Shown here piece by piece: positions 13,621 to 30,323 of a stretch of 64,000 nucleotides of DNA. How positions within the stretch are numbered: position 1 is the first letter of the stretch; each line of letters opens with the position of its first letter. Origin of the DNA: Blastococcus sp. (lineage in GTDB: Bacteria; Actinomycetota; Actinomycetes; Mycobacteriales; Geodermatophilaceae); assembly GCA_025465355.1 (NCBI GenBank), contig JAODNN010000024.1, positions 1 through 64,000 of the forward strand. The letters run 5' to 3'. The translations under genes were made by a program, and so were the position numbers. The notes beneath the pieces were generated by a model. That model was given only the letters and a program-made list of their open reading frames with translations. It had not been told where the DNA came from and searched no databases.

Positions 13621-14634
13621 TCAGGTCTGGGGACGGATGACTGCCTTGACCGACTGCGGGTCGCGCCTGCCGGCCACCAGCGCCTCCTCGGTCTGATCGA
13701 GCCGGTAGGTGCCGGTGACCAGGCGGTCGAGATCGATCCGTCCCGAGGCGACGAGTGCGATGGCCACGGGCCAGGTGTTGGCGTAGCGGAAGGTGCCCAT
13801 GAGCTCGAGCTCGTGCTCCTGCACCACGGACAGCGGCAGGGCGACCTCGTCGCTCCCCATGCCGACGAGCACCGCTCGCCCGGCACGGTCCAGCGCGCGG
13901 ATGGCCTCGGCGATCACCGGGGCGTATCCCGAGCACTCCAGGAGCACCTGGGGCGGCCTCGGGAGGTCGGAGAGCCGGCTCTCGCGGGCGTCGAGGACCT
14001 CCGTGGCGCCCAGTTCCTTCGCCAGCGCCAGCCGGGCGGGGTTGACGTCGGACACGGCGACCTCGGTCGCCCCGAAGGCGAGCGCCGCCTGGACGCTGAC
14101 CAACCCGATCGGTCCGGCCCCGGTGACGAGGACGCGGTCGCCGGCGCTGACCCGAGCCTTCCGGCACGCCCACAGCCCGACCGAGAGAGGCTCCAGCAGG
14201 GCCGCGGCGTCGTCGCTGATGACCTCCGGCACCGGGTGGGCGAACGCCTCGTGCACGACGACGTACTCGGCCAGCGCACCGTCGATCGGTGGCGTGGCGA
14301 AGAACCGCATGTCGGGGCAGAGGTTGTACCGCCCGGCCAGGCACTGCTCGCACGTCAGGTCGGGTACTCCCGGCTCGATGGCCACCCGCTGCCCGACGGT
14401 CAACCGGGTGACGTCGGGTCCCAGCTCCACGACCTCGCCCGAGCCCTCGTGGCCGAGCACGAGCGGCGCCTCGACGACGAACCGGCCGATGCGCCCGTGC
14501 TCGTAGTAGTGGGCGTCGGACCCGCACACCCCGACGGAGCGGACCCGGACGACGACCTGTGCCGGACCGGGCCGAGGAACCGGCCGCTCCTCGATGGCCA
14601 CGTCTCCGGGTCCGCGCAGGACAGCGGCTCGCAT
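13621..14634 (-). CDS. Zinc-dependent polyol (sorbitol/xylitol-type) dehydrogenase
   Basis: This 337-aa medium-chain dehydrogenase has catalytic zinc ligands in VGVCGSDAHYY and LVLGHEGSGEVVELG. The structural-zinc lobe is reduced: PDLTCEQCLAGRYNLCPD keeps three cysteines. The NAD-binding motif is VLVTGAGPIGLVSVQAA. Members oxidise sorbitol, xylitol or related polyols at C2. It gives the operon a second oxidation specificity beside the long-chain dehydrogenase at 9352. The start codon at 14634 lies 17 bases after the permease stop, and the ATPase gene follows 39 bases on. Confidence 0.85.
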   Translation of the reverse strand: MRAAVLRGPGDVAIEERPVPRPGPAQVVVRVRSVGVCGSDAHYYEHGRIGRFVVEAPLVLGHEGSGEVVELGPDVTRLTVGQRVAIEPGVPDLTCEQCLAGRYNLCPDMRFFATPPIDGALAEYVVVHEAFAHPVPEVISDDAAALLEPLSVGLWACRKARVSAGDRVLVTGAGPIGLVSVQAALAFGATEVAVSDVNPARLALAKELGATEVLDARESRLSDLPRPPQVLLECSGYAPVIAEAIRALDRAGRAVLVGMGSDEVALPLSVVQEHELELMGTFRYANTWPVAIALVASGRIDLDRLVTGTYRLDQTEEALVAGRRDPQSVKAVIRPQT

Positions 14635-14651
14635 GGCACCGGGCCGTGGGC

Positions 14652-15545
14652 TCACTTGACCGCGCCCAGGGAGAGCCCCTGGACCAGCTTGTCCTGGGCG
14701 GCGAAGCCCGCGATGAGCACGGGCAGCGACACCACGAGGGAGGCGGCGCAGACCTGTGCCAGGAACAGGCCCTGGCTGGTCACGAAGCCGGTCAGGTAGA
14801 CCGGCGCGGTCTCCGCACGCGTCCCGGTCAGGACCCGGGCGAAGAGCAACTCGTTCCAGGAGAAGATGAAGCAGATCAGCGAGGTGGCCGCGATCCCGGG
14901 CAGGATGACCGGGGCGACGACCTGCCGCAGGGTCCGGACCAGCCCCGCGCCGTCCACCGACGCCGCCTCCAGGATCTCGACCGGCACCTCGGCGAGGAAC
15001 GAGCGCATCATCCAGACGGCGATGGGCAGGTTCATCGAGGTGTAGAGCAGGGCGAGGAACCAGATGTTGTCCAGCAGCCCGCTGTACTGCGCGAACAGGT
15101 AGATGGGCAGCAGGCCGGCCACGACCGGCAGCATCTTCGTGGACAGGAAGAAGAACATGACGTCGGTCCACTTGCGGACCGGCCGGATGGAGAGCGCGTA
15201 GGCGGCGGGGATCGCCAGCAGCAGCACCACGACGGTCGACAGCACAGCCGCCGTCAGCGAGTTGAGCAGCGACGGCCACGGGCTGGCGCCGCCACCCGCG
15301 CCGAAGAACTCGCGGTAACCCTGCAGGGTCAGCGGTGCGAACACCTTCGGCGGGTTCGACGCCGCGTCCGGTTCGCTGTGGAAGGACGTGAGCAGCATCC
15401 AGACCACCGGCACCACGAAGAGCAACCCGATGAGCCAGGCGACGAGCCCCAGGACGACTCCGCCGCGCTGCCTGCGGTGCCGCCGGGGGGCGCCCTCGCG
15501 GGTGCGGGTCGCGGGAACGGGCGCGACGTCGGTGACGGCGCTCAT
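14652..15545 (-). CDS. Polyol ABC transporter permease, MalG/SmoG type
   Basis: The 297-aa protein has six hydrophobic helices and the permease EAA loop EILEAASVDGAGLVRTLRQVVAP that docks on the ATPase. Its N-terminal cytoplasmic part is rich in Arg. The start overlaps the preceding permease stop (ATGA), so the two permeases are coupled and form a heterodimer. Confidence 0.9.
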   Translation of the reverse strand: MSAVTDVAPVPATRTREGAPRRHRRQRGGVVLGLVAWLIGLLFVVPVVWMLLTSFHSEPDAASNPPKVFAPLTLQGYREFFGAGGGASPWPSLLNSLTAAVLSTVVVLLLAIPAAYALSIRPVRKWTDVMFFFLSTKMLPVVAGLLPIYLFAQYSGLLDNIWFLALLYTSMNLPIAVWMMRSFLAEVPVEILEAASVDGAGLVRTLRQVVAPVILPGIAATSLICFIFSWNELLFARVLTGTRAETAPVYLTGFVTSQGLFLAQVCAASLVVSLPVLIAGFAAQDKLVQGLSLGAVK

Positions 15546-16504
15546 CGGCCTGCCTCCTGCCGGAACAGCGTCGACACGGTGCGCAGCGCCAGGGTGGCGA
15601 TGAGGATCGTGCCGATCAGGGTGATGACGCCCGCCGCGGAGGCCCGGCCGTAGTCGTGGGCCAGGTAGAAGGTCTGGTAGATGATGTAGGGCAGGTTCGC
15701 GGTGCCCAGCCCGCCGGACGTGATGACGAAGACCGGGTCGAAGGTCTGCACGATGTAGATCGCCCCCAGCAGACCGCCCAGTTCCAGGTACTGGCGCAGA
15801 TGCGGGAAGGTCATGTAGCGGAAGATCTGCCAGCTGCCGGCACCGTCGATGCGTGCCGCCTCGATCACGTCGAGCGGCCGGCTCTGCAGACCCGCCAGCA
15901 GGATCAGCATCATGAACGGGGTCCACTGCCAGATGAGGGTCATCTCGATCGCCCCCAACGGAAAGGCCGAGATCCAGTCCGGCTGCGGTGGGCTGCTCGA
16001 GCCGAACAGACTCCAGATCCACTTCAGGACCCCGTTGATCAGGCCGTACTCGGGATTGAAGATGGCGTGCTTCCACACCAGAGCGGCAGCTACCGGGACG
16101 ACGAGGAAAGGCGCGATCATCATCGTGCGCACCGCGCCGCGCCCGAGGAACTTCCGGTCGAGCAGGAGCGCGATCGCCATGCCGAGCACGAGGCTCACCA
16201 GAACGACGACCACGGTGAGCTCGATGGTGACGACGATCGCGTTGCGGGTGTTGACGTCCGTGAGCACCCGCGCGTAGTTGTCCAGCCCGGCGAACCCGCG
16301 CGCGTGCGGGTAGTACGCGTTCCAGTTCATGAACGAAATGACCAGGGTGGCCACGAACGGCAGCTGGGTCACCACGATCATGAAGACCAGGGCCGGCAGC
16401 AGGGGTGCCCTGCGTGCCCAGTCGGCCGAGCGCCGCAGCCCGGGGCGGGGCCGGGCCGGGGGCGCTCCCCGTTCGGCGCCTGGGCGTTCGAGGGTGACAC
16501 TCAT
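15542..16504 (-). CDS. Polyol ABC transporter permease, MalF/SmoF type
   Basis: The 320-aa protein has hydrophobic segments beginning APLLPALVFMIVVTQLPFV and the EAA loop DVIEAARIDGAGSWQIFRYMTFP. GGAGGCAGC lies before the ATG. It partners the MalG-type permease encoded immediately after it. Confidence 0.9.
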   Translation of the reverse strand: MSVTLERPGAERGAPPARPRPGLRRSADWARRAPLLPALVFMIVVTQLPFVATLVISFMNWNAYYPHARGFAGLDNYARVLTDVNTRNAIVVTIELTVVVVLVSLVLGMAIALLLDRKFLGRGAVRTMMIAPFLVVPVAAALVWKHAIFNPEYGLINGVLKWIWSLFGSSSPPQPDWISAFPLGAIEMTLIWQWTPFMMLILLAGLQSRPLDVIEAARIDGAGSWQIFRYMTFPHLRQYLELGGLLGAIYIVQTFDPVFVITSGGLGTANLPYIIYQTFYLAHDYGRASAAGVITLIGTILIATLALRTVSTLFRQEAGR

Positions 16505-16592
16505 GCCGCTGCCTCCTTCGCTGGCTCCTGCCGGCGCGGCGGTCGCCGCTCCCCGCGGACCAGGGTCCGGTTGCCGACGGCGGGGGGCGGCC

Positions 16593-17966
16593 TCACCCGG
16601 ACGCCTTCCCGGACCGGTAGAACGCGGCCACGTCGTCGGCGAGCTTCTGCCCCCGGTTGAGGGCATCGTCCACGCTCGTCCGCCCGGCGATCGCGGAGCT
16701 GATCTCCTGGGACACCTGCGTACCGAGGTCCGGGAACTCGGGGATGTCGACGAACTGGATCCCCAGGGCCGGCCGCGGCTGGACTCCCGGATTGAGCGGG
16801 TCGGCGCTGCTGATCGCGTGGAGGGTGGGCTGAGCGAACGCCGACGCCTGCTTCAGGTACTCCGGGTTGGAGTAGGTCGACGCGCGCTTGCCGGCCGGCA
16901 CCCGGGACCAGCCCACCTGGGAACCGACGAGGTTCTCGTACTGCTTGCTGGAGGCCCAGGAGATGAACTTCCAGGCGTTGTCCTTCTTCGTGCTCGCCTG
17001 CTGGATGGCCCACGCCCAGGTGTAGAGCCACCCGGAGTGCGGCGTCTGGACCACCGGCGCGGCGACGTAGCCGATCTTGCCCTTGACCGGGGAGTCGGCC
17101 GCCTCGAGCGACCCGGCGGCGGAGGTGGCGTCGTACCACATGGCGACGTTGCCCTGCTCCAGGTCGTTGAGGCACTCGGTGAACCCGGCCTGAGGCGCTC
17201 CGGATTCTCCGTGCGCGCGGACGAGGCCGACATAGAAATCGGTCGCCTTGCGGAAGCCCTCGCCGTTGACCTGGGCCTGCCAGTCCTTGGTGAACCAGGT
17301 GCCGCCGAACGTGTTCACGACCGTGGTCATCGGGGCTATGACCTGACCCCATCCCGGCTGACCCCGCAGGCAGATCCCGTGCATCCCTGGCCGGGTGCCG
17401 TCCACCTTGGCCGCAATGTCGGCGACCTGCGGCCAGGTCGGGGTCGCCGGCATGGTGATGCCCGCGTTCGCCAGCACGTCCTTGCGGTACATCAGGAAGG
17501 AGGACTCGCCGTAGAAGGGCTCGCCGTAGAGCTTCCCGTCCTGCCCTGACAGGGAGGTCGTCATGGGCTTGAGGATGTCCGCCTGGTCGAAGGAGGGATC
17601 GGCTGCCACGTGGCTGTCCAGCGGCGCGACCCACCCGCTCCGGGCGTAGATGGGGACCTCGAAGTTGCTGAGGGAGGCGACGTCGTACTGACCCGCCTGG
17701 CTGGAGAACTCCTGGCTGATCTTGTCCCGGACGTCGTTCTCGGGAAGGACGGTGAAGTTCACCGAGATTCCGGTGTCCTTCGTGAAGTTCGTGGCGGTGA
17801 GCTTCTGCAGGTCGATCATCTGCGGGTTGTTGACCATCAGCACGTTGATGCTGTTCGCCCCACCGCCGCCTCCGGGACCGCCGCCCCACCCGGCGCAACC
17901 GGTGACCGCGAGGGTCGCGACGATCATCGGCGCGAGGCCGGCGCCGTGTCGCATGCATCTAGGCAC
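16593..17966 (-). CDS. Polyol ABC transporter substrate-binding lipoprotein (SmoE type)
   Basis: The 457-aa protein has a lipoprotein signal peptide with lipobox AVTGC (Cys24), then a Gly-rich linker and a family-1 extracellular solute-binding fold (INVLMVNNPQMIDLQKL..., FGGTWFTKDWQAQVN). It is the first gene of the operon and lies opposite the SorC-type regulator. With two polyol dehydrogenases and a xylulokinase downstream, a sugar alcohol (sorbitol, mannitol, arabinitol or xylitol) is the expected ligand. The GTG at 17966 follows AAAGGACC; an ATG twelve bases inside is the alternative. Confidence 0.88.
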   Translation of the reverse strand: MPRCMRHGAGLAPMIVATLAVTGCAGWGGGPGGGGGANSINVLMVNNPQMIDLQKLTATNFTKDTGISVNFTVLPENDVRDKISQEFSSQAGQYDVASLSNFEVPIYARSGWVAPLDSHVAADPSFDQADILKPMTTSLSGQDGKLYGEPFYGESSFLMYRKDVLANAGITMPATPTWPQVADIAAKVDGTRPGMHGICLRGQPGWGQVIAPMTTVVNTFGGTWFTKDWQAQVNGEGFRKATDFYVGLVRAHGESGAPQAGFTECLNDLEQGNVAMWYDATSAAGSLEAADSPVKGKIGYVAAPVVQTPHSGWLYTWAWAIQQASTKKDNAWKFISWASSKQYENLVGSQVGWSRVPAGKRASTYSNPEYLKQASAFAQPTLHAISSADPLNPGVQPRPALGIQFVDIPEFPDLGTQVSQEISSAIAGRTSVDDALNRGQKLADDVAAFYRSGKASG

Positions 17967-18138
17967 AGGTAGGTCCTTTCATCGCTGCGCCGACCGCTCT
18001 CGTCCACACGAGCCGGAGCCCTGGCTGACGCCGGCGAGCCGCGCGAGAGGGGCACCACGGGCCGCGGGAGCCCCACTCACCGTCGCGACGTCGTGGTCTG
18101 CGGGCGTCGCCTTCATCGATGAGCCCCCCACCGCGCTA

Positions 18139-18156
18139 GCTGCTCATATGAGCAGC
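18139..18156. promoter_or_regulatory. 18-bp perfect palindrome, likely SorC-type operator
   Basis: GCTGCTCATATGAGCAGC is a perfect inverted repeat in the 290-base gap between the polyol operon and its divergent regulator. SorC/DeoR-like regulators bind operators with a TGCTCATATGAGCA-like core, so this is the best candidate site. The rest of the gap has no gene. Confidence 0.6.
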
Positions 18157-18256
18157 CTTGATGCCAGGTGTGAAATAAGTCTCGATCCCGACCTACACTC
18201 GCGTCAAGCGGATGTCTCACGGGGGGCGCCCGACGCTCAGACGAGCAGGAGGGTCG

Positions 18257-19207
18257 ATGACGGGCGGACTCATCGGGCCGGCGCAGGCCGTGCTCATGGC
18301 ATCCATCGCGCGCCGCCACTACCTCCACGGGAGGTCCAAGGTCGAGCTCGCCCGGGAGTTCGGCCTGAGCCGCTTCAAGGTGGCTCGGCTCATCGACGAG
18401 GCACGAGACAGCGGGCTGGTCCGCATCGAGATCAGTCACCACGGCGAGATCGACGTCGACCTGTCGGCACGACTCGCGGAGCGGTTCCAGTTGGTGCACG
18501 CGATCGTCGTCGACACTCCCGAAGACGACGCGGCCTCGCTCCGCGACCATCTCGGGCGAGCAGCAGCTCAGCTGCTCGGCGAGGTCATCACCTCCAAGGA
18601 CGTGCTCGGTCTCGCGTGGGCGCGCGCAGTGAGCGCGATGGTTCGGGCCCTCCGCCCGTTGCCAGGCACACCGGTCGTCCAACTCACGGGCGCGCTCGCG
18701 CTCCCGGACGGGCGCGACACCTCGGTCGACGTCGTCCGGAACGTGGCCGGCGCCTCGGGCGGGGCGGCCCACCTCTTCTACGCACCGTTCACCGTCCCCG
18801 ACGCCGCGACAGCCCGCGCGCTCCGCCAGCAGCCGGAGGTGGCGCGGGCCTTCGACCAACTGCCGTCGGTCACCAGAGCGGTGGCCGGAATCGGGTTGTG
18901 GGAGCCCGGCCAGTCAACCCTGTACGACGCTTCGTCGGAGTTCGACCGCCAGGAGCTGCGCCGGCTCGGCGTCTGTGCCGACATCTCCGGTGTCTTCCTG
19001 GACGCCGACGGGAAACCGGTCAGAACCGAACTCGCCGAGCGCACGATCGGGATCAACCACGAGCAGATGCAGGCGATCCCCGAGGTCATCGCCATCCCCT
19101 ACGGCGTGGCCAGGGCCCCGGCCGTCCGTGCCGCCGTCCGCAGCGGCCTCATCGGCGGTCTCGTGACTCATACCGCTCTCGCGGAACTGCTGCTCGACGA
19201 CGAATGA
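18257..19207 (+). CDS. SorC-family sugar-binding transcriptional regulator
   Basis: The 316-aa protein has an N-terminal helix-turn-helix (SKVELAREFGLSRFKVARLIDEARDS) and the SorC effector domain, a ribose-5-phosphate-isomerase-like fold, with LGLAWARAVSAMVRALRP and VAGIGLWEPGQSTLY. The ATG at 18257 follows AGGAGGGTCG. It is divergent from the polyol operon with a palindrome between them. The likely effector is a phosphorylated sugar from the pathway, such as xylulose-5-phosphate or fructose-phosphate. Whether it activates or represses cannot be told. Confidence 0.88.
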   Translation: MTGGLIGPAQAVLMASIARRHYLHGRSKVELAREFGLSRFKVARLIDEARDSGLVRIEISHHGEIDVDLSARLAERFQLVHAIVVDTPEDDAASLRDHLGRAAAQLLGEVITSKDVLGLAWARAVSAMVRALRPLPGTPVVQLTGALALPDGRDTSVDVVRNVAGASGGAAHLFYAPFTVPDAATARALRQQPEVARAFDQLPSVTRAVAGIGLWEPGQSTLYDASSEFDRQELRRLGVCADISGVFLDADGKPVRTELAERTIGINHEQMQAIPEVIAIPYGVARAPAVRAAVRSGLIGGLVTHTALAELLLDDE

Positions 19208-19314: not shown

Positions 19315-21048
19315 ATGTCGACGACGACGACGACCACCACGCCACGTCCGGCCGGGCAGCGGCCCCGTTCGGTCGAGCCGGCGCCGCAGACCGAGACCGA
19401 GGCGCTGTCCACGGTCGAGGGCGCCGAGTCGCCAGGAGTTCCTTCCCCCCGCGGAATGGCCCGCGCCCTGCTCGCCACGTTCGGTCGCCCCGTACCGGTT
19501 GTTCGGGAGACGGCTCGCCTCGGGCGCGACGCGATCCGCGTCCTGCGCGGCACGGACGAGATCGCTCCCGCACCCCGGGACAAGCGGTTCGCGGACCCGG
19601 CGTGGGCGACACATCCGGGCTACCGCCGTCTGGCCCAGTCCTATCTGGCGGTCACCGGTGCCCTGGACCGCCTCGTCGCCGACTACGAGGCCGGCGGGGC
19701 GGACTGGCGCGAGGTGGAGCAGGCGCGATTCGTCGTCAACGCCCTGACGAGCGCGATGGCCCCGACGAACACGCTCCTCGGCAACCCGGCCGCTCTGAAA
19801 CGCGCCTTCGACACCGCCGGACGCAGCGTCGTCCGTGGGGTGGGGCACATGCTCCACGACCTCCGGCGCAACGGCGGTCTGCCCACTCAGGTGGATCGCA
19901 GCGCCTTCACCGTGGGCGAGGACCTCGGGATCACGCCGGGCTCCGTGGTGTACCGCGACCCGGTCATCGAGGTGATCCAGTACGCGCCGTCCACTGCCCA
20001 GGTACGGCAGCGGCCGCTGGTGATCGTGCCGCCGCCGATCGGCCGCTTCTACTTCCTCGATCTGCGGCCGGGGCGCAGCTTCGTCGAGTACGCGGTGAGT
20101 CAGGGCCTGCAGGTCTTCATGGTCAGCTGGCGGAACCCGACCAAGAAGCAGTCGGACTGGGATCTCGACACCTATGCCGGCGCCGTCCTCGACGCGGTCG
20201 ACGTCGCGCGGGAGGTCACCGGCTCACCCGACGTCACGACCATGGGCTTCTGCGCCGGAGGCCAGATCATGACGACGGCCCTCAACCACCTGGCCGCCAC
20301 CGCCGACGACCGCGTGCACGCCGCCGGCTACGCCGTGACGCTGCTCGACTTCGCCAGCCGGGCGCCGCTCGGCGCCTTCTCCGGCCCGCGGCTCCTCGAG
20401 ATCGCGCGCCGGAACTCCCGCCGCAAGGGCGTGATCAGTGCGCGCGAGATGGGCTCGGTGTTCACCTGGATGCGCCCCGACGACCTGATCTTCAACTACC
20501 TGGTCAGCGAATGGCTCATGGGCGAGGACCCTCCGGCCTTCGACATCCTCGCGTGGAACGCCGACGGCACGAACCTGCCCGCCAGGCTGCACGAACAGTT
20601 CCTGGAGATCTTCGGCGAGAACGCCCTGGCCCGTGCCGGGGCGCTGCGCGTGCTCGGGACGCCGATCCACCTCGGCCGGATCACCGTGCCGACGTTCGTC
20701 ACGGGTGCCCTCACCGACCACCTCACCCCATGGGACGGCTGCTACCGGACGACGCAGCTGCTCTCCGGGGAGACCACCTTCGTGCTCAGCTCCAGCGGGC
20801 ACATCCAGAGCCTGGTCAACCCGCCCGGCAATCCGAAGGCGCACTACTGGACCGGCGGCGCGCCGGGGCCGGACGCGCAGGCCTGGCGCGCAGCGGCCGA
20901 GCGGCACACCGGCAGTTGGTGGGAGCCGTGGGCGGAGTGGGCCCTCGAGCATTCCGGGGACGAGGTTCCCGCGCCGACGGCGACCGGCAGCACCGGGCAC
21001 CCGCCACTGGACGCGGCCCCGGGGTCCTACGTCCGGGAGCGCGACTGA
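19315..21048 (+). CDS. phaC: Poly(3-hydroxyalkanoate) synthase, class I type
   Basis: The 577-aa protein joins (R)-3-hydroxyacyl-CoA units into polyester on the granule surface. The synthase 'lipase box' with Cys nucleophile is GFCAGG (C313); D468 in TGALTDHLTPW and H496 in SSSGHIQSLVNPP complete the triad. The N-terminal domain ends before VRQRPLVIVPPPIGRFYFLDL. Length fits class I synthases, which favour short-chain monomers and need no PhaE/PhaR partner. The N-terminus carries a run of seven threonines. It faces the minus-strand block encoding a hydrolase, KASIII, carboxylase and PhaB-like reductase, which could make its monomer. Confidence 0.92.
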   Translation: MSTTTTTTTPRPAGQRPRSVEPAPQTETEALSTVEGAESPGVPSPRGMARALLATFGRPVPVVRETARLGRDAIRVLRGTDEIAPAPRDKRFADPAWATHPGYRRLAQSYLAVTGALDRLVADYEAGGADWREVEQARFVVNALTSAMAPTNTLLGNPAALKRAFDTAGRSVVRGVGHMLHDLRRNGGLPTQVDRSAFTVGEDLGITPGSVVYRDPVIEVIQYAPSTAQVRQRPLVIVPPPIGRFYFLDLRPGRSFVEYAVSQGLQVFMVSWRNPTKKQSDWDLDTYAGAVLDAVDVAREVTGSPDVTTMGFCAGGQIMTTALNHLAATADDRVHAAGYAVTLLDFASRAPLGAFSGPRLLEIARRNSRRKGVISAREMGSVFTWMRPDDLIFNYLVSEWLMGEDPPAFDILAWNADGTNLPARLHEQFLEIFGENALARAGALRVLGTPIHLGRITVPTFVTGALTDHLTPWDGCYRTTQLLSGETTFVLSSSGHIQSLVNPPGNPKAHYWTGGAPGPDAQAWRAAAERHTGSWWEPWAEWALEHSGDEVPAPTATGSTGHPPLDAAPGSYVRERD

Positions 21049-21055
21049 CGCGCGC

Positions 21056-21928
21056 TCACTCCGTGCTCGGGACGCGGTCGGAGAGCCGTCGTAACTCCTC
21101 CAGCATCACGCCCGGGTACTGCAGCGGCAGGAAGTGCGTGCCGGCCACCTCACGCAGCCGCGCGCCCGGCACGGCCCGCGCCGCGGCCCGGACGTCAGCG
21201 ACGTCGACGAGGGAGTCGTAGCGCCCCGCCACGAACGTGACCGGGCAGCGCACCCTCGAGACGTCGAGCGGTCGGTGCTCGCCGACCGCGACGGCGAGGT
21301 GCCGGTACCAGCGCCAGTCGTGGCGCGAGAACTCCTCCAGCACGGCTCGCAGCGCACCCGGATGGGCGGCCTCCTGCAGTGGCCCGCGCACCGCCGCCGG
21401 AACGAGCAGGTCGTACCAGGGCGGCAGGCTCGCCACGAGGACGGGCAACAGCGGTCCGACCAGCGGCAGCAGGTGGCTGCTGAACCGGCCCACCCGGGGG
21501 CGCACCGCCCGCGGCACGCGGTAGGGGGCGAACAGCGCGTCGAAGCTGCCCCCGGGGACACCGGCGACGGCGAGGACGGCGCGCACGCGGGCGGCTTGCT
21601 CCAGGGCCAACTCGAACGCGACGTTGACCCCCAGCGACCAGCCGATCACCACCGCCGAGGGGAGCTCGAAGGCGTCGAGGACAGCACGGGCGTCGGCCAC
21701 GTGGTCCTCGACCCGCACCCGGCTGCGGTCCGTGGGCCGCGCGGAGCCGCCGAGCCCCCGGTGAGCCCACGTCACCACGCGGAAGCCACTGTCCGGGGCC
21801 ACAACCCGCGGCCAGGCCGCGGGCGGCGCCCCCAGCCCGTTGCACAGCAGGACCGGTGTGCCGGTGCCGTCGTTGCTCCAGGCCCGCAGCCTGGTTCCGT
21901 CCGCTGCGCGAACCGTCCGGGTGCTCAG
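21056..21928 (-). CDS. Alpha/beta hydrolase, possibly PHA depolymerase or thioesterase
   Basis: This 290-aa alpha/beta-hydrolase-fold protein has VRAADGTRLRAWSNDG at the start, an oxyanion region VLLCNGLGAPP, nucleophile elbow VIGWSLGVN (GxSxG), Asp in VAGRYDSLVDV and a C-terminal His in VAGTHFLPLQ. No ATG or GTG lies near the natural start. The best start is a CTG at 21928, sharing bases with the KASIII stop (CTGA), so it would be translationally coupled. In medium-chain PHA loci a hydrolase of this size (PhaZ) depolymerises the polymer; that role fits here but is not proven. Other esterase or thioesterase roles are possible. Confidence 0.75.
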   Translation of the reverse strand: MSTRTVRAADGTRLRAWSNDGTGTPVLLCNGLGAPPAAWPRVVAPDSGFRVVTWAHRGLGGSARPTDRSRVRVEDHVADARAVLDAFELPSAVVIGWSLGVNVAFELALEQAARVRAVLAVAGVPGGSFDALFAPYRVPRAVRPRVGRFSSHLLPLVGPLLPVLVASLPPWYDLLVPAAVRGPLQEAAHPGALRAVLEEFSRHDWRWYRHLAVAVGEHRPLDVSRVRCPVTFVAGRYDSLVDVADVRAAARAVPGARLREVAGTHFLPLQYPGVMLEELRRLSDRVPSTE

Positions 21929-23874
21929 GCGAATGCCTGCCGCATCTCCTCCGATGCGGGCACCCCGTACACGTGAGCGCCGGGTTCCACCGCCTCGCGG
22001 GAGGGCCCGACCGGCTGCTCGACGGCAACAACCGCCGGGTCGAGGCGCATCACCGCGTAACCGGCGACCGCGCCCGCGCCGAACCCCGGCGCAAAGATGC
22101 GCAGCGGCTCGGTGACGACGCCGTCCCGGACGGCGTCGTGCATGGCCAGCGGGATGCTGGCGGACGACGCATTGCCCACCTGCTCGATGTTGAAGTAGAG
22201 CTGGTCGGGACTCAGCCCCGCCCGCTGGGCCAGCTGCACCACCATCGTCTTGTTGGCCTGGTGCGGCACGATCAGGTCGATGCTGTCCAGCAGCGTGCCC
22301 GCGCCGCCGTCCGGGTTCGGCAGGTCCCTCAGCTCGTCGATCATCTGCGCCAGGTAACGCCCGGCGAGTGCCTTCACCTGCGGCCCGAAGACGGTGATGT
22401 TGTTGTCGAACTCCGGGTTCGGCCAGAGGATCGAGTTGACCTCGCTCGCCGGGCCGCTGGCGTAGGTCTGCATGTACGAGAAGTCGCGGGGGTCACCCTC
22501 GGCCGCGACGCCCACGACCATCGCGGCCGCGCCGTCCCCGAAGATCATCCGCGACGTGCGGACGTTGCCGATCTTGTCCGAGAACTTCTCGGCGCAGACC
22601 ACCAGCACCGGCCGCTCGACCTCCTGGAGCAGCCGGGTGGCCTCCGCGAGGCCGTAGGGCATGCCGGCGCAGGCGGCGATGATGTCGTACGCCGCGTGGG
22701 TCTGGTAGATGCCGAGCTGCCCGCAGAGGTAGGTGGCCAGCGACGGGATCAGTCGCGAGCTCGTGCAGGTGCAGACCAGGACTGCGCCGATCTCCTCCGG
22801 CTCCCGCCCCGCCTTGGCCAGGGCCGCCTCGGCTGCCCGCAGCGCCAGGTCCTCCAGGCTGATCGAGCTGTACCGGCGCTGCTCGATCCCGGTCTTCTCG
22901 CGGATCTCGTCGGCGCCCATCGGCGACCAGTTGTAGGCGGAGTTGCGGATCAGGTCCTCGTTCGTGCACACCTGGTCGCCGTGCACCGCGGCCAGCGACT
23001 CCAGATGCGGCTGGACGGCGAACCGCCCGATGTCGATCGCCGGGAAGGGCCGCACCGGCGGCCGGGACTCCCGGGGCGGTGTGACGGCCCGGTTCGGGAG
23101 GTCGCCGCGCAGCCGGCGCAGGAAGCCCCGCACCTCCTTGTCCCGCGGGTGGAAGGCGACCACGTAGTCGTCGTCCTTCAGGTCCCCGGCCTCGGCCAGC
23201 TCGACCTGCGACCGCTCCCACGGGTACTGGTTGTGCAGCACCATGGCCCAGCGGTGCAGCGCCTCGAGCTCGGGCACGTCCTCGTCGACATCGAGGATGT
23301 CGGCATAGTCGTACACCGGGTAGTCGGGGTCGTAGTGCGGCAGCCGGAAGGTGAGGTTGCCGGGCCCGTCCAGGAACTCGGCGACCGTTGGCTTCACGGC
23401 CGGCAGCGTGGACGCGTGGTGCTTGCGGTTGGCGAACACGTCGAACAGGACCTCGAAGATCCGGTCCTCGACGGCCGCGTCCCAGCGGGCCGGCAGCGAC
23501 GGGTAGGCCTCCCCGACTGCGGCCACCTTGGTCCCGCCGTCCTCCCAGGGCTCCAGGACCGGCAGGAAGACGTCGGTGCGGTTGCGCGGCACGTCCGCCC
23601 AGCGGGTCGGCCGCTTCTCGTACATGGTGATGGAGAACCGGTTGGCCCAGAACAGGTTCAGCGCCAGGTCGCGCATCAGGGCGTAGCGACTGTCGTAGGC
23701 GCCGGTGCGCACCTTCTCCAGGATGTCCGTACCGCTCGGCGCCTTGGTCTCGAAGTCACGCCGGATGACCTCGTCGAGCTGCTCCAGCGTCTCCAGGGTC
23801 GAGAAGTCCAGCTCCGGGATGATGTTGGACGGGAAGACCATGCGACCGTGCCGGTTCAGGACGAAGGCGTCCAT
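21925..23874 (-). CDS. KASIII (FabH/NphT7-like) ketosynthase with a ~270-aa N-terminal extension
   Basis: Residues ~285-625 form a KASIII thiolase-fold enzyme with catalytic Cys402 in DIIAACAGMPYG, His in IVPHQANKTMV and Asn in EQVGNASSAS. Such enzymes condense acetyl-CoA with malonyl-ACP (FabH) or malonyl-CoA (NphT7). Residues 1-270 are an unrecognised, acidic and aromatic-rich domain not present in FabH. GAGGAG precedes the ATG. The gene lies 36 bases after the giant carboxylase gene, which would make its malonyl-CoA, and overlaps the hydrolase gene. In this setting acetoacetyl-CoA formation for polyester synthesis is the leading idea. A role in fatty-acid starter synthesis is the alternative. 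Confidence 0.8.
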   Translation of the reverse strand: MDAFVLNRHGRMVFPSNIIPELDFSTLETLEQLDEVIRRDFETKAPSGTDILEKVRTGAYDSRYALMRDLALNLFWANRFSITMYEKRPTRWADVPRNRTDVFLPVLEPWEDGGTKVAAVGEAYPSLPARWDAAVEDRIFEVLFDVFANRKHHASTLPAVKPTVAEFLDGPGNLTFRLPHYDPDYPVYDYADILDVDEDVPELEALHRWAMVLHNQYPWERSQVELAEAGDLKDDDYVVAFHPRDKEVRGFLRRLRGDLPNRAVTPPRESRPPVRPFPAIDIGRFAVQPHLESLAAVHGDQVCTNEDLIRNSAYNWSPMGADEIREKTGIEQRRYSSISLEDLALRAAEAALAKAGREPEEIGAVLVCTCTSSRLIPSLATYLCGQLGIYQTHAAYDIIAACAGMPYGLAEATRLLQEVERPVLVVCAEKFSDKIGNVRTSRMIFGDGAAAMVVGVAAEGDPRDFSYMQTYASGPASEVNSILWPNPEFDNNITVFGPQVKALAGRYLAQMIDELRDLPNPDGGAGTLLDSIDLIVPHQANKTMVVQLAQRAGLSPDQLYFNIEQVGNASSASIPLAMHDAVRDGVVTEPLRIFAPGFGAGAVAGYAVMRLDPAVVAVEQPVGPSREAVEPGAHVYGVPASEEMRQAFA

Positions 23875-23910
23875 GCCACTCTCCTCGGGTTCTCGACTGC
23901 TGGAACGGGG

Positions 23911-29412
<5,502 letters not shown>

Positions 29413-29478
29413 CCGTAGACCTCTCCCTGGTGAGTTCCGTCGACGGCGGAGGAATCCGTACTACCGGCTGCCTGCCCG

Positions 29479-29516
29479 CGTCACATGTCGGCGTCACATT
29501 GTCGGCGTCACATGTC
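29479..29516. repeat. Three short direct repeats overlapping the reductase stop codon
   Basis: On the minus strand the unit ATGTGACGCCGAC occurs twice, followed by ATGTGACGCGG, end to end. The first unit contains the ATG-TGA end of the reductase gene. The rest lies in the 95-base gap before the carboxylase gene. It may be a slippage product or a binding array. Confidence 0.6.
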
Positions 29517-30323
29517 AAGGCCGCCGTTGACGCCCCAGACCTGTCCGGTGATGTACGCGGAGGCGTCCGCGGACAGGAAATGGACGACGCGGGCGATCTC
29601 CTCCGGGTCACCGAGCCGCCCGAGCGGGATCTTGGCCCTGAGCCCGTCCAGGACCTTCTCCGGAACACTGTCCAGCATCTCCGTCGCGGTGTAGCCCGGG
29701 GTGACGGCGTTGACAGTGATCCCGATCCCGTCGGTGTTGCCGGCCCGCTGCAGCTGCATCGCGGCCTCCCGGGCGAGGGTCTTGGTCAGACCGAACAGCC
29801 CCGCCTTGGCCGAGGCGTAGTTGACCTGCCCGATGCCGCCGGTCTCGCCGATGACCGACGAGATCATCACGATGCGCCCGCTGCCGCGGTCGAGCATGTG
29901 CCGGAGCGCGGCCTGGGAGAGGTAGAAGGCGCCGGACAGGTTGACGTCGATGACCCGACGCCAGTCTTCGTCCGTCATCTTCAGCACGGTGCGGTCCGCA
30001 GTGATCCCCGCGTTGTTGACCAGGATGTCCAGCCGGCCGTGCTGTTCGATCACCTCGTCGACCGTCCGGCGGCAGTCGTCCGGGTCCGCGATGTCGCCGC
30101 GGTGGACGCTCATGTGACTCTCCGGATAGGCGCCGGCGAAGTCCTGAGCGAACATCTCAGCCCTCTCCTGGTTGCCGCTGTAGCCGGCAGCGACGTCGGC
30201 ACCCTGCTTCCCGAGACTCCGGCAGATCGCGGCACCGATCCCGCGGGTGCCGCCGGTCACGAACGCCACCCGGCCGAGAAGCTTGTCACCGGCCCTGGCG
30301 CTGCGTGCCTGCGTCGCTGTCAT
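29508..30323 (-). CDS. phaB: 3-oxoacyl-/acetoacetyl-CoA reductase, PhaB/FabG type
   Basis: The 271-aa short-chain dehydrogenase has the Rossmann motif VTGGTRGIGAAI, NNAG in ILVNNAGITADR, catalytic Ser in VMISSVIGETGG and YASAK (Tyr-x3-Lys). ITADRTVLKMT and NVNGGLDM-like ends are typical of PhaB/FabG. GAGGAGG precedes the ATG. It is the first gene of the minus-strand block that continues into the carboxylase and KASIII, so it is placed to reduce acetoacetyl-CoA to (R)-3-hydroxybutyryl-CoA for PhaC. Substrate on CoA rather than ACP is inferred from context. Confidence 0.82.
   Translation of the reverse strand: MTATQARSARAGDKLLGRVAFVTGGTRGIGAAICRSLGKQGADVAAGYSGNQERAEMFAQDFAGAYPESHMSVHRGDIADPDDCRRTVDEVIEQHGRLDILVNNAGITADRTVLKMTDEDWRRVIDVNLSGAFYLSQAALRHMLDRGSGRIVMISSVIGETGGIGQVNYASAKAGLFGLTKTLAREAAMQLQRAGNTDGIGITVNAVTPGYTATEMLDSVPEKVLDGLRAKIPLGRLGDPEEIARVVHFLSADASAYITGQVWGVNGGLDM

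Follow-up and report, generated by a model that had tools for sequence, protein, structure and literature searches.

The locus described here lies in a window of 64,000 nt of Blastococcus sp. (assembly GCA_025465355.1, contig JAODNN010000024.1, positions 1 to 64,000 of the forward strand), the window being the whole stretch of DNA that was analysed, and consists of five genes at 19315-30323. The polyhydroxyalkanoate (PHA) synthase gene phaC is on the plus strand, and the genes for a PhaB-type reductase, a single-chain acyl-coenzyme A (CoA) carboxylase, a condensing enzyme of the 3-ketoacyl-acyl carrier protein synthase III type (KASIII; the enzyme and its homologues are called KAS below) and an alpha/beta hydrolase are all on the minus strand (Table 1). 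The original prediction, which had read the block as a thiolase-free polyester locus driven by malonyl-CoA, listed these genes in this arrangement, and open reading frames (ORFs), Pfam and NCBI family matches recovered all five. The gaps amount to 95 bp between reductase and carboxylase and 36 bp between carboxylase and KAS, purine-rich sites precede the starts of the carboxylase and the KAS, and phaC converges with the hydrolase gene at a distance of 7 bp. A promoter and terminator scan of the locus gave no signal above shuffled sequences. The carboxylase is complete on one chain of 1833 aa, as had been predicted, with biotin carboxylase (BC), biotin carboxyl carrier (BCCP), ACC_central and carboxyltransferase (CT) domains in this order (Pfam).

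Table 1. Features of the five-gene block, in window coordinates
Feature	Position	Strand	Basis
phaC, polyhydroxyalkanoate synthase, 577 aa	19315..21048	+	PF07167, E 4.9e-54
Alpha/beta hydrolase, listed ORF 21056-21802; probable extent with CTG start	21056..21928	-	PF00561, E 1.7e-17
Two-domain KASIII-type condensing enzyme gene, 649 aa	21925..23874	-	ORF and Pfam domains
KASIII (FabH-type) catalytic domain, residues 293-611	22042..22998	-	Sequence and predicted fold; Cys402, His538, Asn568, Thr543
KAS N-terminal domain, residues 1-290	23005..23874	-	Conserved; searches of known families and folds gave no match
Single-chain acyl-CoA carboxylase gene, 1833 aa	23911..29412	-	BC-BCCP-ACC_central-CT on one chain
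CT domain, carboxylase residues 1335-1823	23944..25410	-	PF01039, E 2.6e-32
ACC_central region, carboxylase residues 1052-1202	25807..26259	-	PF08326, E 4.6e-08
BCCP domain, carboxylase residues 585-650, ESMKMET motif	27463..27660	-	PF00364, E 8e-14
BC domain, carboxylase residues 1-449	28066..29412	-	PF00289/PF02786/PF02785
PhaB/FabG-type short-chain reductase, ATG at 30323	29508..30323	-	TIGR01829 top match, 282.2 bits (cut-off 302.1)

The condensing enzyme had been described as a KASIII with an intact Cys-His-Asn triad, which holds for its FabH-type domain but misses a 290-aa N-terminal extension. The catalytic domain is FabH by sequence, and its predicted fold matches E. coli FabH best (E 5.5e-24). 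Scanning named genomes with the N-terminal domain turned up 153 matching stretches; we fetched the best 80, roughly half of which look like the same genomes as in the Geodermatophilaceae set introduced below. We aligned 79 KAS with E. coli FabH, namely the window enzyme, a second copy on contig C190 of the same genome and those of 77 of the 80 fetched loci, three KAS shorter than 600 aa having been dropped. The triad (C402, H538 and N568 in the window) is kept throughout, with Cys in 79/79, His in 78/79 (one gap) and Asn in 79/79. FabH Arg249 is the arginine that docks acyl carrier protein (ACP); its position holds Thr in 77 of the 79 enzymes (one Pro, one gap), Thr543 in the window, and this replacement fits the proposed CoA-dependent reaction. 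Other FabH positions are also changed, Trp32 to Glu in 75, Arg36 to Lys in 77 and Lys214 to Ala in 61 of the 79 sequences. Whereas the basic ACP-docking residues of the Arg249 region are not kept in the KAS family, Trp32, Arg36, Arg249 and Lys256 are all retained in the FabH that this genome encodes on contig C52, about 2 kb away from a carboxyltransferase. We take Arg249 to be the arginine that is missing from NphT7 of Streptomyces sp. CL190, which agrees with the NphT7 sequence. NphT7, a CoA-specific synthase, lacks an arginine needed for ACP binding according to excerpts of PMC5432608. The substitutions bear on the alternative that KAS is an ordinary malonyl-ACP FabH and the cluster a second fatty-acid initiation set: the C-terminal half is clearly FabH in sequence and fold, but the changes at the ACP-docking positions, together with the lack of any Pfam match to FabD, FabF or ACP families among the genes of the block, make this alternative quite improbable.

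For the N-terminal domain, no Pfam family scored above threshold, and a search of PDB sequences gave nothing below E 0.21. Its structure model is confident (mean pLDDT 88, pTM 0.82), and no PDB or viral-model match reached E 0.001 or better in a fold comparison by VIA-align, which covered 60 chains proposed by Foldseek and could miss a distant fold. On these results, the domain may have a novel fold, within an enzyme family that has been studied very closely. Across 46 sequences 38 columns are invariant, in a set that was retrieved with two N-domain peptide patterns and is thereby biased towards conservation at both spots. The two stretches, KRPTRW.DVPR and HNQYPW, contain many charged and aromatic residues, and their conservation is partly due to selection by the search; going by their composition, they could form a ligand or active site. 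A KAS domain follows in 80 of the 80 loci fetched by the N-domain alone, a contig end cutting it in L142 and L161, and the N-domain probably places the KAS on a partner or on its CoA substrate. The second two-domain KAS of the genome (L021:459-2408), near the start of contig C190, is 79% identical over the matched part; the 9.6 kb downstream of it contain no carboxylase, PhaB-type reductase or PhaC, and aminotransferase-like and glutamine synthetase-like genes were named there by eye.

The distribution of these genes was followed through 112 Geodermatophilaceae genomes (the family set). KAS with the N-domain is present in 45 of them, in 6 of 12 genera, and the N-domain was found in 2 of 396 genomes of a phylum sample, the window's genome being one of the two, which indicates that it is frequent in certain lineages only. 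The single-chain carboxylase has a strong match in 48 family genomes and is missing from 64, a count that includes eight genomes whose carboxyltransferase match was only weak (E about 1e-3 to 1e-4). By hand count, 44 of the 112 genomes contain both KAS and carboxylase, one KAS alone, four the carboxylase alone and 63 neither; in the single genome with KAS alone (G467), the contig ends beside the KAS gene. Setting aside the window's own locus, the family set has 46 KAS loci. In 40 of them the carboxylase is at most 250 bp away; 40 of the stretches contain the reductase (counted at an identity of at least 45%), 33 contain PhaC and 26 the hydrolase. In 35 family loci the sequence extends 6.8 kb or more ahead of the KAS and 3 kb or more beyond it, and 24 of these contain carboxylase, reductase and PhaC together. 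Among the best 80 of the 153 named-genome stretches, 64 contain the carboxylase, 59 the PhaB-type reductase and 33 PhaC; in the last 40 of these (L150-L189, two of them labelled Geodermatophilaceae) the carboxylase is found in 28.

The fetched loci come from Geodermatophilus, Blastococcus, Modestobacter, Pseudonocardia, Actinomycetospora and Rhodococcus ruber, and from metagenome-assembled genomes (MAGs) labelled Nocardiopsis, Nakamurella, Intrasporangium, Nocardioidaceae, Acidimicrobiaceae, Thermoleophilia and others; MAGs can hold misbinned contigs, which makes the class-level spread less certain than the rest. In Geodermatophilaceae the order is mostly reductase-carboxylase-KAS(-hydrolase), facing phaC. 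In the genus of R. ruber all 14 loci (from 14 of 18 genomes) have the carboxylase followed by reductase-KAS, and 12 of 21 Pseudonocardia loci have KAS-carboxylase-reductase, the others having KAS-reductase, the carboxylase before the KAS, or a cut contig. In a Thermoleophilia MAG, a short-chain dehydrogenase/reductase (39% identical to the window reductase and under the counting threshold), PhaC, a phasin-like gene (a weak Phasin_2 match, 20.0 versus 24.9 bits) and a helix-turn-helix (HTH) gene adjoin a KAS and a carboxylase that point apart, and in UBA4719 (L152) PhaC, an HTH gene, a small gene with no Pfam match and the reductase adjoin the KAS, the carboxylase following past one more gene. 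The gene order proposed for the window is thus not limited to one strain: many Geodermatophilaceae keep it, other actinobacterial groups have the block in rearranged form, and a linkage that persists despite rearrangement argues for a single function.

Several of these loci show local peculiarities. In four loci of the Rhodococcus genus (L225, L229, L233 and L236), carboxylase and reductase are separated, by eye, by an alpha/beta hydrolase gene that runs on the other strand. In L232 (G521 contig C93, R. ruber genus) the KAS and the carboxylase are each split into several frames or pieces, reflecting decay or sequencing errors. In a Blastococcus MAG (L065:2584-2780, identical to L112) all that is left of the carboxylase between reductase and KAS is short fragments of its first ~90 residues, through a true deletion or an assembly fault.

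That the neighbourhood is due to chance can be dismissed, because the set is retained through several gene orders and its partners are missing from control stretches; we found nothing in favour of chance. The controls were 12 stretches (180,766 bases), seven around carboxylases away from KAS and five elsewhere in the window's own genome, and contained no such reductase and no PhaC, from which it follows that the polymer link goes with the KAS rather than with the carboxylase. Carboxylase copies away from KAS (L191-L197) sit in varied neighbourhoods (by eye: oxidoreductases, regulators and others), and the carboxylase therefore probably has roles outside the module too. The genome encodes four further carboxyltransferases besides the locus carboxylase.

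The remaining genes of the block were compared with known families. PhaC has a PhaC_N domain and an alpha/beta hydrolase fold with the Cys nucleophile box GFCAG, and the Asp and His of its triad are visible in the sequence; it scores under both NCBI cut-offs, with 580.7 versus 855.4 bits for TIGR01839 (class II) and 500.4 versus 622.65 bits for TIGR01838 (class I). Acetoacetyl-CoA reductase (TIGR01829) is the best family for all three reductases tested, those of the window and of R. ruber (281.2 bits) scoring below the cut-off and the partner reductase of Pseudonocardia bannensis (306.4 bits) above it. The hydrolase gene is probably longer than listed and begins at a CTG, because its frame is open and homologous up to the CTG at 21928-21926, which overlaps the KAS stop, and because the homologue in Geodermatophilus ruber (L111) reaches about as far as the extended frame. 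The product could be a thioesterase or a depolymerase.

We read the reductase-carboxylase-KAS(-hydrolase) operon as a malonyl-CoA-driven monomer supply for PHA, with a probability of about 0.7. This reading builds on the gene content, the domains, the catalytic triad, the changed FabH ACP-docking residues and the conserved gene association, from which we infer the substrates, the direction, the physiological role and any role of the N-domain. In the proposed route, the single-chain carboxylase would use ATP and bicarbonate to charge acetyl-CoA to malonyl-CoA. Cys402 of the KAS would take up a short acyl group from CoA, either acetyl or perhaps propionyl, for condensation with malonyl-CoA, on CoA rather than ACP, the loss of CO2 driving the step one way. 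The PhaB-type reductase would then convert the 3-ketoacyl-CoA to (R)-3-hydroxyacyl-CoA, which PhaC would polymerise. A carboxylase of the same architecture, SACE_4237, carboxylates acetyl- and propionyl-CoA, giving malonyl-CoA from the former, as described in excerpts of PMC6491548.

Several observations weigh against this reading, and some of them concern the enzymes themselves. The AGGSR motif of NphT7 is absent from the five family rows compared (window, C190, L171, L188 and L164); the triad numbers and AGGSR of the NphT7 sequence used agree with excerpts of PMC5432608, and the same excerpts tie AGGSR to CoA recognition. Since the motif is absent, we do not claim that KAS belongs to the NphT7 family, and regard it at most as a functional analogue. 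In FabH, Trp32 and Arg36 also contact CoA; CoA would therefore have to bind KAS somewhat differently, and the change of these two residues cuts both ways. The window reductase not only falls short of the acetoacetyl-CoA reductase cut-off but has a nearly equal FabG score.

Other points concern the linkage. The four family genomes with carboxylase alone (two of them less than 90% complete) belong here, as do two genomes (G423 and G424) that keep reductase and KAS together and the carboxylase elsewhere. Three Actinomycetospora loci (L178, L179 and L181) have no partner within about 9 kb, and two second KAS copies (L021 on C190 of the window's own genome, and L076, identical to L118, on G429 contig C85) have none nearby; L142, L155 and L161 likewise show no partners, but their contigs are short. 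PhaC is absent from the Pseudonocardia and Rhodococcus stretches and from several long-flanked Geodermatophilus stretches, and it is common in the family regardless, PhaC_N occurring in 94 of the 112 genomes. The sets found away from phaC and the solitary Actinomycetospora KAS genes would also suit a module that makes (R)-3-hydroxyacyl-CoA or 3-ketoacyl-CoA for non-polymer use (branched lipids, polyketide starters or an ethylmalonyl-CoA type pathway), with PhaC as a mere neighbour. We consider this improbable, given that PhaC is present in 33 of the 46 family stretches and also in stretches of distant MAGs, with HTH genes and once with the phasin-like gene. Moreover, PhaC was found in all six KAS-bearing genomes tested, including the three whose KAS stretch is without it (R. 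ruber, Pseudonocardia endophytica and Actinomycetospora sp.). The earlier view of the five genes as one dedicated pathway with phaC is thus borne out as to the conserved linkage, but is weakened by the sets that are not beside phaC in the Pseudonocardia and Rhodococcus stretches read and by thiolases elsewhere in the genome.

The thiolases are the last point against a malonyl-CoA-driven supply. In the window, four thiolase queries from the own genome found no thiolase, and this contig has no PF00108 match. The other contigs of the genome, however, have 10 PF00108 matches, the weakest being a FabH-like protein on C52, and one of these thiolases is of the acetyl-CoA acetyltransferase type and lies beside a MeaB-like GTPase (named by eye); one thiolase comparison used a reference cut short at one end, which lowers the scores for that protein. 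The predicted absence of thiolase therefore applies to the locus and not to the organism: the proposed pathway bypasses thiolase within the cluster only, and the cell is not thiolase-free. With the same four queries, no thiolase match was found in 46/46 family, 78/80 named-genome and 14/14 R. ruber genus KAS stretches, many of which are shortened by contig ends; in the two exceptions, both from Pseudonocardia (L168 and L172), the thiolase is more than 8 kb away. A second full phaC is present in the genome (L031:7141-8949) on contig C188, which has no PF00108, PF08541 or PF01039 match.

Thiolase could accordingly be the main polymer route and the KAS module an auxiliary for particular conditions or for C5 (3-hydroxyvalerate, 3HV) units from propionyl-CoA. 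The thiolases and the second phaC agree with this, as does the polymer of R. jostii RHA1, which according to excerpts of PMC2667194 contains 67-85% 3HV on four carbon sources, that is, mostly 3HV from unrelated carbon. The same excerpts describe the PHA genes of RHA1 as unclustered with thiolase or reductase, like those of R. ruber. We regard a main route through thiolase as the most serious competitor, though a good deal less probable than a malonyl-CoA-driven supply, since KAS, carboxylase and reductase are linked in most loci; it would alter the weight of the mechanism and not the mechanism itself. If R. jostii has the KAS gene, a KAS accepting propionyl-CoA would, as a conjecture, fit the 3HV-rich polymer of RHA1. 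A wider proposal is that a natural PHA route with carboxylase and two-domain KAS in place of thiolase is widespread in actinobacteria, that the N-domain, as a new fold, receives malonyl-CoA straight from the carboxylase or discriminates between propionyl- and acetyl-CoA, and that the module supplies the 3HV-rich Rhodococcus polymer; as a whole we hold this to be rather unlikely.

Beyond the block itself, the region upstream of phaC (window 13621-19207) contains sugar/polyol ABC transporter genes, a zinc-type dehydrogenase and a SorC-like regulator (named by eye), perhaps a separate polyol-use operon. On C188, phaC stands between an acyl-CoA dehydrogenase-like gene before it and an alpha/beta hydrolase gene after it, both again named by eye.

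Compared with phaCAB operons of the Cupriavidus type, the locus shares PhaC and the PhaB-type reductase, but carboxylase and KAS take the place of the PhaA thiolase. KAS has the same catalytic domain and triad as the FabH of fatty acid synthesis, from which it differs in the changed ACP-docking residues and the extra N-terminal domain. With NphT7 it shares the kinship to FabH, the Cys-His-Asn triad and the lack of the ACP-binding arginine; NphT7, however, belongs to a mevalonate gene cluster and has AGGSR, whereas KAS has the 290-aa domain, no AGGSR and an adjoining carboxylase. NphT7 is not known to have an N-terminal extension. The carboxylase resembles SACE_4237 of Saccharopolyspora erythraea in combining BC, BCCP, central region and CT on one chain of ~200 kDa. 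SACE_4237 is its host's essential fatty-acid carboxylase in excerpts of PMC6491548, whereas the window-type gene is missing from 64 of the 112 family genomes and lies mostly beside KAS where both occur.

Searches of open-licence papers yielded no natural PHA module of this build and no KASIII with this N-domain. The chemistry itself is already known from engineering, where polyhydroxybutyrate (PHB) routes pair NphT7 with PhaB and PhaC. Excerpts of PMC5432608 name the use of NphT7 for PHB in sugarcane and give about +7 kcal/mol for the thiolase condensation of two acetyl-CoA versus an estimated -0.9 for malonyl-CoA plus acetyl-CoA. Engineers bypass the unfavourable thiolase step with NphT7; a natural module doing likewise could let soil actinobacteria store carbon at low acetyl-CoA; it would also yield new enzymes for polymer production and make the origin of the Rhodococcus 3-hydroxyvalerate units testable.

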